Shown here: positions 39,289-64,000 of the stretch, piece by piece | Layout: the number at the start of each line of letters is the position of its first letter | How positions within the stretch are numbered: position 1 is the first letter of the stretch | Origin: Gordonia heveisoli | GTDB taxonomy: Bacteria; Actinomycetota; Actinomycetes; Mycobacteriales; Mycobacteriaceae | DNA: 64,000 bases | NCBI RefSeq assembly: GCF_030315745.1 | Contig: NZ_JASXSH010000017.1 | Coordinates: 1 to 64,000, forward strand | Direction: 5' to 3' | The notes under the pieces: model-generated | Seen by the model: the letters and a program-made list of their open reading frames with translations, nothing else | What the model was told of the DNA's origin: nothing | The model's database searches: none | Made by a program: the position numbers and the translations under genes

Positions 39289-39302
39289 ATGGTTAACTAC
39301 GT
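39289..39302 (+). promoter_or_regulatory. Candidate operator of the second regulon, copy 1
   Basis: ATGGTTAACTACGT shares GnTAACTACGT with the copy at 47669 and differs in the first three bases. It lies 27 bases before the acyl-CoA dehydrogenase start. The overlapping GGTTA (39291) and TAACC (39307) make a wider inverted repeat. Confidence 0.6.
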
Positions 39303-39329
39303 GTAATAACCTTTCGACGGGAGAGCGGG

Positions 39330-40391
39330 ATGGACTTCGCGCTGAGTACGGAGCAGCAGGACCTGGCTGACGCCGAGCGCTCCTGGCTGGTCAAACACGA
39401 TCCGATCCTCGCCCGGCGAGAGTCGATCGACGATGTCCCGGCCCCCATCCCGGCCGCCGCCCGCAAACATGTCGTCGAATCCGGGCTGGCGAGCCTGCTG
39501 ACCGATGAGGTCGGCGCCACACACGTCGATCTGCTGGTGATCGTGGAAGCGCACGGATGGGCGGGTAGCGCGCTTCCGGTCGCAGAACTGGCGATCGCCG
39601 CCGCGGCGCTCGAGGCCATCGACGATCCGCACTGGGCGGAGGTGGCGGCCGGAGAGCAGGTTGCCATCCCGGTGTTGTCGCCACGAACCGATTCGCTGGC
39701 CGTGGAGGTGGTCGGCGGCGGTCTGCGGCTCCGTGGAACCACGGCGCCGGCCGCCGGTTTGGCCGATGCGGAGCGGATCGTCCTGCTGGCGCGTACCGCC
39801 GACGGGACCGACGTCGCCGCGGCGATCCCGGTGGCCGACGCGGGTATCCGGATGCTCGACACCCTGGATCTCACCCGTTCCTGGGGTGTCGCCGACCTCG
39901 ACTGCACCGTCGCCGACTGGGCGGAACTCCCGGCGGGCGAATCGTCCCGCCTGGCCGATCAGCTCGCCACGCACCGGGCGATCGATGCGCTCGGTGCCGC
40001 CGACCGTCTGCTGCAGATGACCGTCGACTATGCGGGGCAGCGCACCCAATTCGACCGGCCCATCGGATCATTTCAGGCGGTCAAGCATCATCTCGCCAAT
40101 ATGGCGCTCGGCGTCGAGGCCTCCCGCTCGGTGCTGTGGGCGGCGGCTGTCGCACTCGACGAGGAGGACGGCCCGGACGGCGCGGGCACCCGGGCGCGAG
40201 CCGTGTCGGCCGCGGTCGCCTACGCGTGCAAGGCGACCTCGCAGGTGGCCCAACTCGCGTTGCAGGTACACGGCGGCATCGGCTTCACCTGGGAACACGA
40301 CGTCCATCTGCTCATCCGCCGGATCAAGGTCGACGAACTGCTCGACGGTTCGGTCGCCGATCATCGCCGACGTCTGGTCGCGCTGAGCTGA
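39330..40391 (+). CDS. Acyl-CoA dehydrogenase, non-catalytic alpha-type subunit
   Basis: A 353-residue protein behind GACGGGAGAGCGGG. It has the alpha-subunit marks YAGQRTQFDRPIGSFQAVKHHLAN and LQVHGGIGFTWEHDVHLLIRR, and the helix that holds the catalytic Glu in beta subunits reads HRAIDALGAADRLLQM without Glu. By analogy with ChsE1, it should need a beta partner. The best candidate in the window is the orphan beta-type gene at 46427, which carries all motifs that this one lacks. It is the first gene of the second catabolic set and has a candidate GntR-type operator 27 bases upstream. Confidence 0.85.
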   Translation: MDFALSTEQQDLADAERSWLVKHDPILARRESIDDVPAPIPAAARKHVVESGLASLLTDEVGATHVDLLVIVEAHGWAGSALPVAELAIAAAALEAIDDPHWAEVAAGEQVAIPVLSPRTDSLAVEVVGGGLRLRGTTAPAAGLADAERIVLLARTADGTDVAAAIPVADAGIRMLDTLDLTRSWGVADLDCTVADWAELPAGESSRLADQLATHRAIDALGAADRLLQMTVDYAGQRTQFDRPIGSFQAVKHHLANMALGVEASRSVLWAAAVALDEEDGPDGAGTRARAVSAAVAYACKATSQVAQLALQVHGGIGFTWEHDVHLLIRRIKVDELLDGSVADHRRRLVALS

Positions 40392-40450
40392 CCCGCGCCA
40401 CCCGTCCCACTGAGCGCCGTCGACGAGGGCGGCACACTACGCTCGTCGTT

Positions 40451-60957: not shown

Positions 60958-60978
60958 AGGTGACCTAGGCAACTATGT
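60958..60978 (+). promoter_or_regulatory. Candidate operator of the second regulon, copy 4 (flavoprotein side)
   Basis: AGGTGAC plus CTAGGCAACTATGT (60965-60978) matches the copy at 60783 at 19 of 21 positions. It lies 80 bases before ATG 61059. The two copies are in the same orientation, 175 bases apart. Confidence 0.7.
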
Positions 60979-61058
60979 TAGATATGTCGACGAACGTCGT
61001 CGTGCCGAGTGCCGCTCCCCGTGCGGAGCCTGCGCCGGTCCTGCCCAAGGAGTCGTCA

Positions 61059-62063
61059 ATGCTCACCACGCGCTTCACCGAGTTGTTCGACATCGACCAC
61101 CCGATCGTGCAGGGCGGCATGATGTTCGTCGGCCGTGCCGAGTTGGCCGCGGCGGTATCGAATGCCGGTGGGCTGGGGATCATCACGGCGCTCACGCAGC
61201 CCACGCCCGATGATCTCGCCGCGGAGATCGCGCGATGCCAAGCCCTCACCGACCGGCCCTTCGGTGTGAACATGACGCTCACCCTCTCGATCAATCCGCC
61301 GCCGTTCGCGGAGTACCGGCGCGTCATCATCGAATCCGGCGTTCCGATCGTCGAGACGGCCGGATCGGATCCGACCGTGCACATCGAGCACCTCAAAGAG
61401 CATGGGATCAAGGTGATCCACAAGTGCACCAGCGTCGCTCACGCACTCAAGGCGCAGACCATCGGCGCGGACGCGGTCAGCATCGACGGGTTCGAATGCG
61501 CCGGGCATCCGGGCGAAGACGACATACCCGGGTTGATCCTGATCCCGACGACGGCCGACGCCCTGACCATCCCGTTCATCGCCTCCGGAGGATTCGCCGA
61601 CGGTCGTGGACTCGCGGCCGCACTGTCGCTCGGCGCCGACGGCATCAACATGGGCACCCGATTCATGTGTACCGAGGAGAGCCCGATCCACGAGAACATC
61701 AAGCAGATGATCGTCGGCGGAAGCGAACATGACACCCGCCTGATCATGCGCCAGCTGCGTAACAGCATGCGGGTCGCGAAGAACACCATCAGCGAGGAGG
61801 TCATCGAGATCCTCGCCGGTGGTGGACGTTTCCGGGATATCAAGGAACTGGTGGCGGGTGTCCGCGGTCGGCGTGTCTTCGCCGACGGCGACCCCGAGTT
61901 GGGTGTCTGGACCGTCGGACAATCGCAGGGCCTGGTCCACGACATCCCCTCGGCCGGCGAAGTCGTGCGTCGTACCGCCGCGCAGGCCGAGGCTGTGATC
62001 GCCGCGATGACGTCGCGCATCGTCGCCGATCCGCAGCTGAGCGGACAGGGTATGCGCGGATGA
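61059..62063 (+). CDS. Nitronate monooxygenase-family flavoprotein
   Basis: A 334-residue TIM-barrel flavoprotein. ATG 61059 is chosen for CCCAAGGAG upstream. Motifs: [31 protein letters not shown] at the N-terminus, the [12 protein letters not shown] loop with the family His near residue 155, and the FMN phosphate-binding segment [29 protein letters not shown] near 180-210. The family includes true nitronate oxidases and also FMN enoyl reductases or dehydrogenases; IpdC of the steroid C/D-ring pathway belongs to it. A redox step on a CoA ester is more likely here than nitronate oxidation, given the neighbours. It overlaps the next start (ATGA). Confidence 0.87.
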
Positions 62064-64000
62064 CGGCGGTGGGTAGTGCCGACTCGGTCGGCGGCAAGGT
62101 TCCCGTGGCGACGGCGCCCTGGCGGGAGCGTCTGGCGGCACTGCTGGCCGACTACCGTTCGCGCCCACGCCCATCGACCTCTCGTGCGCGGCTGGAGGCT
62201 GCGGTGGCCTGGCAGTCCGAGCTGGCCGATGCCGGGCTGGCGGCGCCGGGTTGGCCGTCGAGCGTGGGCGGCATGGAGCTCGACCTGGAAGGTCAGCTCG
62301 ACTACTACCGGATGACGACTGCGGCCGGGGCACCCAAACATCCCTGCAGCGTCTCCTTCATCGTCGCGCCGACCCTGATCGTCCATGGCACGGCGCGGCA
62401 GCGGGATCGGTTCCTGGATCCGCTCTTGCGCGCGAATGAGTTTTGGTGCCAGGGCTTTTCGGAGCCTGGGGCAGGCAGTGATCTCGCCTCGCTGTCCACG
62501 CGTGCGGTGCGTGAAGGGGACGTCTACCGCGTCACCGGACAGAAGATCTGGACCACCCGGGCCGATCGGGCCGATTGGATGTTCGCGCTGGTACGCACCG
62601 GGCCCGCCGGTCGCGGCACGTCGGGCATAACCTACCTGTTGATCCCGATGAACTCACCCGGCATCGAGGTCCGGCCGCTGCGGGACGCCGCGGGTGGCCA
62701 TCACTTTGCCGAGGTCTTCTTCGACGATGTCGAAGTGCCGGTGGACAACCGGGTCGGGGAGGAGGGTGGCGGCTGGTCGATAATGCGGACATCACTCGGC
62801 CATGAACGCGCGACGGCCTTCCTCGCCGACGAGTTCCGCTACCGCAAGACCGTCGACCAGGTCGCGAAACTCGCAGTCGCGCAGGGCTATACCGACGACC
62901 CGGAGATTCTTACGCAACTGGCCGAACTCGAAACCGACGTGCGTACGATTGCGCGGAACAGCGCCCGGGCGCTCGACGCCGTGCTGCGCGGCGAGGACCC
63001 CGGTGGGGTGGCCTCGCTCAATCGTCTCGTCAAATCCGAGTTCGAGCAGCGAATGCATACGCTGGCGTTGCGACTGACCGGTCCGGCCGCAGTACTCGAC
63101 AGCCGTTCGGCAGGCACCGTGGACGGTGGCCGCTGGACTTACGGATACCTGATGTCGCGGGCCACCACCATCGGCGCGGGCACCGCCGAGATCCAGCGCA
63201 ACACCATCGCCGAGGCGGTGCTCGGTCTGCCGTCCCATCGCGGTGAGGGCACCCGGCCCGCGGCGGTGCCGCCGGGCAGCCCACTGGCCGCGCCCGAGGA
63301 CGACGAGGTCGCAGTCCGGGAGACCGTGGCCGGGATCGTCGCGGCCGCCGTGCCGGTCGAGTCGCCGACCGATGGTCGGCGCCGGGAGCGCGAGGTGTGG
63401 GATGCGTTGGTCGACTTCGGACTTCCGGGGCTGTCCGCGCCCGAACGGCTGGGCGGGGGCGGCGCATCGTCGCGCCTGCTGTGCGCGGCCGTCGAGTCGG
63501 CGGCGGGCCAGTTGTCGCCTGCCCCGCTGGTGCCCGCCGTGTCGGCGCTGCAGCTACTGCTCGCCGCCGACGCGGACGAACATGCCAAGCAGATCATCGC
63601 CGGTGCCCGCGCGGCGGTGGCCGTCCGCGACACCGATGCGGGATGGGTCGTCGACCCACTGTCGCCGGTCGTCGTCGGCGCCATCGTGTCCGGCAGCGTG
63701 GACCGAGTGGCCGCCGCACCCGATGCGGACCTGTTCGTCGTCATCGCCCGTGACGAGCGGGATGGCGAGCCGACCATCGTGGTCGTCGATGCCGCACGAG
63801 CAACCATCAGTGATCAGCAGTCCGTCGACATCACGACTTCGGTGGGCACCGTCACCTTCGACGAGGTACACGGCGACGTCGTCGCGCGCGGAGACCTGGC
63901 ACGCCGAGCAATGCACAGCGCTCAGCGGTTCACCGCGCTGGCCCTCGCCGCCGATTCGGTTGGCGTCGCGAATCGCGCGTTGGCAATGGCCGTGGATTGG
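62060..64000 (+). CDS. Fused beta-alpha acyl-CoA dehydrogenase (runs off the window)
   Basis: ATG 62060 overlaps the flavoprotein stop, and the frame stays open for 647 codons to the window end, so the 3' end is missing. Residues ~1-385 are beta-like: [37 protein letters not shown], catalytic Glu in [11 protein letters not shown], and [21 protein letters not shown]. From ~430 a second, alpha-like domain begins ([23 protein letters not shown]) and continues to a Glu-less helix [20 protein letters not shown]. The order beta-alpha is the reverse of ChsE3 at 16292. It should be a self-contained heterodimer equivalent that oxidises a bulky acyl-CoA. Confidence 0.88.

Follow-up and report, generated by a model that had tools for sequence, protein, structure and literature searches.

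Genes of the region

The window analysed here is a stretch of 64,000 nucleotides from Gordonia heveisoli (contig NZ_JASXSH010000017.1, here called C9, positions 1-64000), and window coordinates are equal to C9 coordinates. The subject is a region of 19 predicted genes at 39330-64372, typed by Pfam and NCBIfam, together with the larger gene set, or supercluster, to which it belongs. The source genome (G000) has 4.46 Mb in 65 contigs and is 100% complete. The analysis was extended to C9:1-100000, where genes with approximate boundaries were called with a home-made codon model and numbered g0-g82. Protein families were assigned by Pfam and NCBIfam profile searches, applying the curated cut-offs of NCBIfam, and the Rfam and tRNA scans gave no matches. 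The gene classes that an earlier note on this DNA had named for 39-64 kb were all confirmed by these searches.

Three acyl-CoA dehydrogenase (ACAD) systems are found in the region, formed by g32 with g38, by g44 and by g50. The g32 product (39330..40391, +, 353 aa) is of the small-subunit type with only the C-terminal domain matched in Pfam (PF00441), and its best named model, IpdE2, gives 94 bits with a cut-off of 450. The g38 product (46427..47617, +; PF02770/02771/00441) is of the large-subunit type and PimC-like, at 219 bits with a cut-off of 624. For g44 (53350..54507, +) the identity is 45-50% in Streptomyces, Actinophytocola and G040, a genome from another family of the same order, and 82% in Williamsia, with no homolog assigned in Pseudonocardia. 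The g50 gene (62060..64372, +) passes the window end and encodes a fused ACAD-ACAD of about 720-770 aa that is 68-74% identical in four Gordonia. A second fused ACAD-ACAD, of 727 aa, is encoded at window 16292-18475, in the left locus.

Two AMP-forming acyl-CoA ligases are encoded. One, g37 (44886..46400, +; PF00501), shows 58-74% identity in the superclusters and stays below the cut-offs of CasG (231 of 750 bits) and FadD3 (195 of 657). The other, g39 (47804..49309, +), is 42-50% identical in Streptomyces, G040 and Actinophytocola and 68% in Williamsia, with none assigned in Pseudonocardia, and reaches 136 bits with the CasG model (cut-off 750). The thiolases g40 (49336..50484, +) and g43 (52142..53293, +) are 58% identical to each other. 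The first is 75% identical in Williamsia and 72% in Nocardia uniformis, and 54-55% identical to a thiolase in the HIP-type (C/D-ring) cluster of two Streptomyces; the second is a core gene with 68-79% identity in the superclusters, none being assigned in Pseudonocardia. Between the thiolases are a CaiB family CoA-transferase, g41 (50599..51828, +; PF02515), and a single-cluster ferredoxin of 62 aa, g42 (51871..52059, +; PF13459), which is likely the partner of a cytochrome P450. The short-chain dehydrogenase (SDR) g36 (43967..44725, -; PF13561) is 68-70% identical in Streptomyces, G040, Pseudonocardia and Actinophytocola. The NMO-family flavoprotein g49 (61059..62063, +; PF03060) is PA1024-like (PDB 2gjl, 431 bits) and only 32% identical to the IpdC candidate on contig C56.

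The importer genes are all on the minus strand. They are a solute-binding lipoprotein, g45 (54604..55821; PF13458), with a lipobox read from the sequence, a LivF-like ATPase, g46 (55903..56670), a fused permease-permease-ATPase of the LivH-LivM-LivG type, g47 (56667..59435; two BPD_transp_2 domains and ABC_tran), and a second lipoprotein with a lipobox, g48 (59480..60712), which is 57% identical to g45. Homologs of the triple fusion g47 are 81-85% identical in four Gordonia, 63% in Streptomyces MMG1533 (a gene of 919 aa) and 56% on plasmid pRHL1 of Rhodococcus RHA1. There are two GntR/FCD regulators, g33 (40451..41257, +; PF00392, PF07729), present in three of six Gordonia, and g35 (43094..43894, +), found with 84-89% identity in all six. 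Among the best 25 models per protein, no equivalog model was over its curated cut-off for any gene of the region, and the region enzymes are thus paralogs of the named ones.

Flanking genes and the supercluster

Genes of ring degradation are found on both sides of the region. On the left, g29-g31 (36365..39168, +) encode an HsaE/HsaG/HsaF-like hydratase, acetaldehyde dehydrogenase and hydroxy-oxovalerate aldolase, and g30 and g31 are over their cut-offs (431 bits over 282, TIGR03215; 524 over 286, TIGR03217). They precede the region in Gordonia, and homologs with 37-60% identity lie inside several of the Streptomyces superclusters and that of G040. The right flank, which reaches to 98 kb, begins with g52 P450, g53 NAD-binding dehydrogenase, g54 aldehyde dehydrogenase, g55 mycofactocin-coupled SDR (339 bits, cut-off 300) and g56 amidohydrolase, followed by g58 MaoC-like protein, g59 SDR and g60 hydratase (the last two typed by start sequence and homology only) and g61 flavin reductase. 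Further along are g62 HsaA-like, g63 HsaD-like, g67 KstD-like, g69 extradiol dioxygenase, g71 Baeyer-Villiger monooxygenase (BVMO), g76 CaiB-CaiB, g77 hydratase and g81 P450. P450, HsaA/B/D-like, KstD-like and extradiol dioxygenase genes thus occur at 65-84 kb.

The g62 product reaches 351 bits with the HsaA model, below the cut-off of 450, and is closer to PDB 2or0 (481 bits) than to the HsaA structure 3afe (262 bits), while g63 scores 283 bits with the HsaD model (cut-off 400). The g67 product matches PDB 4c3x, a 3-ketosteroid dehydrogenase of R. erythropolis, at 460 bits (E 1.2e-136, a similarity only); the KstD of the left locus, g24, passes model NF005882 with 981 bits over 788. The closest relatives of g69 are catechol 2,3-dioxygenases, with no HsaC named among the matches at 1e-5; the dioxygenase of Streptomyces G310 is instead 39% identical to the HsaC candidate on contig C34. 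The nearest solved structures are CYP101J2 (222 bits), CYP101D1, CYP143 and P450cin for g52, and for g71 it is 5mq6, presumably a polycyclic-ketone BVMO.

The fusion of a DUF35 and a thiolase-fold part encoded by g34 was sought in named genomes; the best 80 of at least 578 confirmed stretches were kept and three plasmid loci added, giving 83 loci. At 45% identity or more, its partners in these loci were g41 (34), g56 (33), g55 (18), g38 (18), g54 (15) and g59 (14). Both halves of the supercluster, beta-oxidation and ring genes, occur together in Streptomyces MMG1533 (G061), Streptomyces S3 (G065), Pseudonocardia eucalypti (G062), Actinophytocola oryzae (G063), Williamsia faeni (G070, a record marked UNVERIFIED_CONTAM), G040, the partly read S. 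fulvoviolaceus (G064), four other Streptomyces (G310, G165, G142 and G338) and one Streptomyces plasmid. The stretch fetched for G061 has 54 predicted genes from 0.8 to 58.1 kb; for G064 60 kb were fetched, a reach that does not extend to KstD- or HsaD-like genes. The set is present as far as fetched in G257 and G088. The plasmid is a linear one of 561 kb in Streptomyces NBC_00080 (NZ_CP108236), where a complete mycofactocin operon (mftR, mftG, mftA-F) and then an HsaA-like gene are found at 413-451 kb. Since this operon stands beside the pathway and the SDRs are mycofactocin-coupled, alcohol oxidation linked to mycofactocin is proposed.

The earlier note had described a separate, complete pathway beside the sterol locus. 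This is not supported; the region is part of a larger set with HsaEFG-like genes to the left and KstD- and HsaABD-like genes to the right. The note had also reported the absence of HsaC, P450, KshA and IpdAB, which is true of the window stretch; for HsaC-type and P450 genes it is an effect of the window edge, as such genes are located at 65-84 kb, while KshA and IpdAB are indeed absent from the region and both are found elsewhere in the genome.

Some further features were observed in the flanks. Between g63 and g64, at C9:77688-77755, there are four tandem 14-base GGGACTCGGATTGG units and part of a fifth. The membrane-like g68 (C9:81724-82494) belongs to no Pfam family and has homologs of 44-51% identity near KstD-like or HsaA/B-like genes in Streptomyces, Pseudonocardia, Actinophytocola and G040, with none found in the Williamsia and G349 stretches. 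Next to the KstD gene g24, window 30832-33831 encodes a protein of 999 aa with no Pfam match at 1e-8, in which hydrophobic stretches and a GGGIR stretch were seen by eye.

Conservation of gene order

Within Gordonia, g0-g82 were compared by tblastn with the surroundings of the fusion gene in G027, G032 (Gordonia soli), G036, G031 and G003. The order g31-g54 is the same in G027, and g31 to g58 or beyond is kept in G032, G036 and G031. The region order is thereby conserved in all four Gordonia with full coverage, and in G003 as far as the contig reaches, with 61-93% identity for the shared region genes. The synteny search proposed earlier, with genes scattered in relatives as the outcome that would count against a common regulon, therefore gave a kept order. 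Differences are few: g33 had no match in the neighbourhoods of G027, G032 and G003, g51 is missing from G036 and G031, and an additional SDR precedes g49 in two of the four relatives.

All four fully covered relatives have two enoyl-CoA hydratase genes that G000 lacks, one located between g37 and g38 and one following g49. The copy described here is thus reduced by two hydratase genes. The corresponding sites are window 46400-46427 and 62063.

A palindrome shared by the promoters

The earlier note had pointed to a shared promoter motif, and this was borne out. The palindrome TAGTTAACTA was found by reading promoter sequences and then tested by shuffling. With at most two mismatches there are 6 matches in the window against 1.04 expected (standard deviation 1.04), a number reached in 0 of 100 shuffles. 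Five of the six are in promoters of the region and the sixth is inside g20. An exact copy is found upstream of g39 (47670..47679) and is also exact in G027, G032, G036 and G031. Copies with one mismatch lie upstream of g32 (39290..39299; also in G027, G036, G031 and G003, but not G032) and upstream of g48 (60791..60800), and copies with two mismatches lie between the divergent g36 and g37 (44805..44814; no match there in the relatives) and upstream of g49 (60966..60975). No match was found in C9:64-100 kb.

The five Gordonia relatives have 18 matches (4, 3, 5, 5 and 1) against about 1.5 expected in sum (20 shuffles each), all intergenic and upstream of g32, g34, g39, g48 or g49. The extended form is ACATAG(T/C)TAACTATGT. 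An excess was also seen in Nocardia uniformis (4 against 0.5), N. nova (3 against 0.25), N. jiangxiensis (3 against 0.5) and Rhodococcus BH4 (9 against 1.8), partly at other genes; none was seen at the loci of Williamsia (1 against 1.2), Tomitella, two other Rhodococcus, Streptomyces, G040, Pseudonocardia and Actinophytocola (0-1 each). The automatic searches gave at most 3 promoters sharing a half-site palindrome, and gapped words in at most 5 of 15 promoters, with 4-5 likewise in shuffles. Because g35 occurs in all six Gordonia genomes it is a better candidate than g33 for the regulator that binds the operator, and it probably controls the 39-64 kb half through the ACATAGTTAACTATGT-type putative operator.

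Exclusion of KshA and the types of HsaA

PMC4064121 presents KshA as the key enzyme of bacterial steroid degradation, with which the opening of the rings begins. KshA and HsaC were among the markers demanded in a survey of the genomes of steroid degraders (PMC4810484). A pathway with KstD- and HsaABD-like genes that excludes KshA would consequently be invisible to such a screen.

The KshA_C domain (PF19298) has two matches in G000, one on C34 (290 bits) and one on C20 (162 bits), and none in the region. Among 23 genomes, all picked for carrying the fusion, it was matched in 18, with no match in G040, G061, G064, G065 and G067. The first four of these KshA_C-free genomes have one HsaA-like match each, of the g62 type. 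By identity to g62, the HsaA-like copies fall in three tiers, of at least 60% (17 copies), 51-56% (12) and at most 42% (26). A KshA gene (at least 244 bits) is found within 15 kb of 1, 10 and 21 of these, respectively, that is, of 1/17 g62-type copies and 31/38 others (Fisher 1.2e-7; the Fisher tests given here ignore shared ancestry). The sole g62-type copy with a KshA nearby is that of G066, 8.2 kb away.

The maximum-likelihood tree of 37 rows placed 14 g62-type rows in one clade with support 100/99, joined with weaker support (82/77) by three rows without KshA label, the copies of G066, G073 and G069; the first was entered without the label despite the KshA 8 kb off. In the sister clade 9 of 11 rows have KshA neighbours.

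The pattern is the same in a survey of 295 Streptomyces genomes, in which the best 6 HsaA-like candidates per genome were scored, so that copies may be missed. A match to a Streptomyces g62-type query was found in 39 genomes; its identity was at least 77% in 9 of them (one over part of its length) and at most 60% in the other 30. Strong KshA (at least 260 bits) occurs in 28 of the 295, namely in 0/9 with the g62 type against 27/30 with another HsaA-like gene (Fisher 1e-6), and in 1/256 of the rest. The three genomes with another HsaA and no strong KshA are G204, G234 and G312. Four of the nine g62-type genomes have a weak KshA_C match below 98 bits, on another contig or megabases off. The Rieske-type motif (CxH, 14-22 residues, CxxH) is present in no predicted protein of C9:1-100000 and in none encoded by the fetched superclusters of G061, G040, G065, G064, G310 and G338; in the C34 stretch the same pattern finds exactly the KshA gene.

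The DUF35 fusion

The g34 gene (41371..43023, +) encodes a DUF35 (OB_ChsH2_C)-Ltp2-like fusion of 550 aa with PF01796 and PF22691, its start having been corrected to GTG 41371 from homologous N-termini. The thiolase-fold half aligns with Ltp2 of T. curvata (6ok1) and Sal of C. testosteroni (9myr), and in this alignment it reads GQNGS, with no cysteine, at the place of the thiolase nucleophile. The motif YDGF and the four zinc cysteines of the DUF35 part are conserved in 28/28 rows, and Arg504 and Gly455 stand at the catalytic-acid places in 25/25 aligned rows, a subset of the 28. HGGQ followed by the same Arg pattern is found in 89 of 91 fusion sequences, two being unmatched by the pattern.

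According to PMC12329534, catalysis involves Tyr294 (YDHF) and Tyr344 in Ltp2, and Tyr302 and Cys304 (YDCY) in Sal, which has Gln352 at the place of Tyr344. The fusion resembles both in the thiolase fold predicted from sequence, the DUF35 partner, the tyrosine of the catalytic base in YDxF and HGGQ, and resembles ChsH2 of T. curvata in a DUF35 part with a C4 zinc ribbon. It differs from them in that DUF35 is fused N-terminally in a single chain, with YDGF in place of YDHF or YDCY and Arg504 where Ltp2 has Tyr344 and Sal has Gln352. In g19, the Ltp2 of the window itself, these places have YDHF and Tyr. The g34 product looks like a retro-aldolase with a different proton donor, which would be a third type of active site (YDGF/Arg).

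Canonical steroid genes elsewhere in the genome

The canonical HsaA of G000 is on C34 (690 bits, cut-off 450). On C56, FadA5 scores 708 bits over 515, a cut-off that g40 (368) and g43 (361) miss, and the same contig has an acyl-CoA synthetase of subfamily PRK07798 (756 over 543), two Ltp-type thiolase-fold genes (733 over 514 and 544 over 419) and P450-like genes. The synthetase, the Ltp-type genes and the P450-like genes are labelled here FadD19, Ltp3/Ltp4 and CYP125. The window's g20 also passes PRK07798, which means that this model does not separate the loci. IpdC-, IpdB-, IpdA- and EchA20-like genes lie together at C56:7.0-10.7 kb, named by homology and gene order; the first three have no NCBIfam match as good as 1e-85. 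G000 has no IpdA match other than that on C56. The roles of IpdC, IpdB, IpdA and EchA20 are taken from PMC5380842. The synteny in 4/4 Gordonia, the palindrome and the location of HsaA and FadA5 on other contigs agree with the earlier view of a conserved CoA-dependent regulon that differs from the canonical genes for steroid rings and HIP.

Orthologs of IpdA were found in 209 of the 295 Streptomyces, compared with 28 having strong KshA and 39 an HsaA-like match at E 1e-60, and most sampled Streptomyces seem to keep genes of the C/D-ring type without the known route for rings A and B. No IpdA ortholog was found in G040 (best 34%) or G067. Given this distribution, the presence of HIP genes neither proves nor excludes a steroid substrate.

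Several candidates and markers were rejected. The HIP branch was ruled out for the region by the location of IpdA on C56, and the cholate route by the missed CasG cut-off. The FadD3 model NF005801 is over its cut-off in Streptomyces and not in G000, the IpdE2 model NF050027 is over its cut-off in 0/23 genomes, and CoA_trans (PF01144) is too broad, so the genome's own IpdA was used instead; as a steroid marker in Streptomyces IpdA itself is too common to inform.

Proposed pathway and alternatives

From the gene content, its conservation, the motif and the exclusion of KshA in the sampled genomes, all of which are observed, we infer the reactions, their order, the regulator and the class of substrate. 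The region is probably the import and CoA/beta-oxidation part of one supercluster (about C9:36.4-98 kb) that degrades a polycyclic isoprenoid-type (steroid- or terpenoid-like) compound without KshA. The LIV-type importer would bring in either the compound itself or an acid left by its partial degradation. P450 and ferredoxin would hydroxylate a methyl or ring carbon, which the mycofactocin-coupled SDR and the aldehyde dehydrogenase could oxidize to the acid, and the ligases and the CaiB transferase would form the CoA thioester. The chain may then be shortened by two-part ACADs, hydratases, SDR and thiolases, and where a branch or ring blocks beta-oxidation the DUF35 fusion would cleave a tertiary beta-hydroxyacyl-CoA by a retro-aldol reaction. 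The KstD-like enzyme might desaturate the ring to a phenol and the HsaA/B-like hydroxylase convert it to a catechol, to be opened by the extradiol dioxygenase and the HsaD-like hydrolase, with HsaEFG-like enzymes completing the degradation.

Several observations weigh against a single pathway free of KshA. The Gordonia with the set have KshA elsewhere, which could therefore act in trans there, and of the KshA-free genomes G061 and G064 carry an HIP-type cluster, as G065 does for the part fitting on an 11-kb contig; this would suit a steroid substrate, although IpdA is so common in Streptomyces that it says little. Since the palindrome is confined to the 39-64 kb half, induction of the two halves may be separate. 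In the 33 kb fetched of Streptomyces G349 the ring genes are present but the beta-oxidation half is not, and in 40 kb of G233 most of the set is lacking. At E 1e-3 the fusion was not matched in what was fetched of G165, G142 and G338, stretches that cover its usual place; g43 is there directly followed by g38 or g81, and fusion paralogs with 61-63% identity are found elsewhere in the three genomes. As it is missing from these otherwise intact superclusters, the fusion, which the earlier note had taken as a pointer, is optional. The count of only 2 of 9 Streptomyces keeping the fusion, obtained when the best 5 candidates per genome were scored, was followed up by reading the loci: in G257 and G088 the place is uncovered, and G233 and G349 have partial sets.

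A terpenoid pathway is one branch of the favoured explanation and its probability is included in that of the whole; it is possible, though tentative. A P450 of the CYP101/P450cin kind would act on a cyclic mono-, sesqui- or diterpenoid, an isopropyl-type side chain would be removed by ACAD, hydratase and aldolase, and the ring would be aromatised and meta-cleaved. This is suggested by the nearest structures of g52, by the affinity of g69 to catechol 2,3-dioxygenases rather than HsaC, by the KshA-free genomes and by the mycofactocin-coupled SDR. The P450 similarity is, however, moderate and fixes no substrate, the KstD match is strongly of the steroid type, and the G310 dioxygenase resembles the HsaC candidate of C34.

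It is rather unlikely that the genes are an accessory cluster of the ordinary 9,10-seco pathway for special steroids (bile acids, hormones, sapogenins), borrowing KshA and HIP enzymes from C34 and C56. Such a cluster would account for the KstD match, for the HsaA/D-like genes, for the KshA and HIP-type cluster that G000 has on these contigs and for the recurrence of the importer g45-47 (41-59% identity) beside the KshA-HsaA-HsaC cluster on pRHL1. It does not account for G040, G061, G065 and G064 (as far as read), which have the set and no KshA_C match, nor for the division of strong KshA between the two Streptomyces groups and the six fetched superclusters without a Rieske motif.

That two or more unrelated pathways are neighbours by chance is less probable still. 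The restricted motif and the ring module standing alone in G349 would fit, but the halves are interleaved in differing orders and yet found together in Gordonia, Williamsia, Streptomyces, Pseudonocardia, Actinophytocola and G040. Degradation of C24-branched phytosterol side chains, a substrate considered in the earlier note because of an aldolase and two-part dehydrogenases near sterol-type genes, is very improbable, since FadA5, the PRK07798 synthetase, the two Ltp-type genes and the P450-like genes lie together on C56 and the set includes genes of ring cleavage.

The favoured KshA-free pathway may, with somewhat less than an even chance, represent a further aerobic route of actinobacteria for the rings of polycyclic isoprenoids such as plant sapogenins, secosteroids or polycyclic terpenoids. 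P450 and mycofactocin-dependent oxidation would here replace the Rieske-type ring opening and the DUF35-fused Tyr/Arg aldolase would remove the blocked side chain, the whole being encoded in a supercluster of about 40-50 genes that once occurs on a Streptomyces plasmid with a whole mycofactocin operon. In the literature covered on cholate, estrogen, terpenoid, sterol, resin acid, DUF35, KshA-free and sapogenin pathways no description of this cluster was recognised, most subscription journals being outside the coverage. A conserved pathway that excludes KshA suggests an unrecorded degradation route for a class of cyclic lipids. It lends itself to direct testing, since its operator is sharply defined, its aldolase is optional and the plasmid copy has a cofactor operon of its own.

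Comparison with known systems

The supercluster shares KstD-, HsaA/B/D- and HsaEFG-like genes and the ACAD-hydratase-aldolase logic of side-chain removal with the 9,10-seco pathway of Rhodococcus and Mycobacterium. It differs in having no KshA in or near it, in HsaA- and HsaD-like proteins below the NCBIfam cut-offs, in a dioxygenase of another subfamily in Gordonia, and in P450, mycofactocin-SDR, CaiB and amidohydrolase as regular partners. The HIP (KstR2) pathway likewise has an NMO-family flavoprotein, SDR, two-part ACADs and thiolase, but IpdA, IpdB and EchA20 are on C56 and not in the region, and g49 is distant from the IpdC candidate. The actinobacterial aed cluster for estrogens, as described in PMC12507874 and compared by that description only, shares P450, extradiol dioxygenase, CoA ligase and two beta-oxidation sets, the difference being the KstD/HsaABD-like genes found here. 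The RHA1 importer for cholate metabolites is CamABCD (ro04885-04888), according to PMC8399759 and PMC6498646.

Of the known systems compared, the nearest relative is the locus at about 950-982 kb of pRHL1, which carries no annotation in its record and links the importer type with steroid-type clusters. It has KshA, HsaA, HsaC, HsaB, HsaD, HsaEFG, KstD and IclR homologs and the importer. Shared with the supercluster are HsaA (53% to g62), HsaEGF-like proteins (54-61%), IclR (44%) and the importer proteins g45, g47 and g46 (41, 56 and 59%). The locus differs in that KshA (55% to the C34 copy) and HsaC are next to HsaA, and no match was assigned in its 49 kb for the fusion, g41 CaiB, P450 g52 or amidohydrolase g56. 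PMC4810484 speaks of a third subclade in actinobacteria, to which it assigns no function and which includes gene cluster 2 of R. jostii; this cluster may be the pRHL1 locus.

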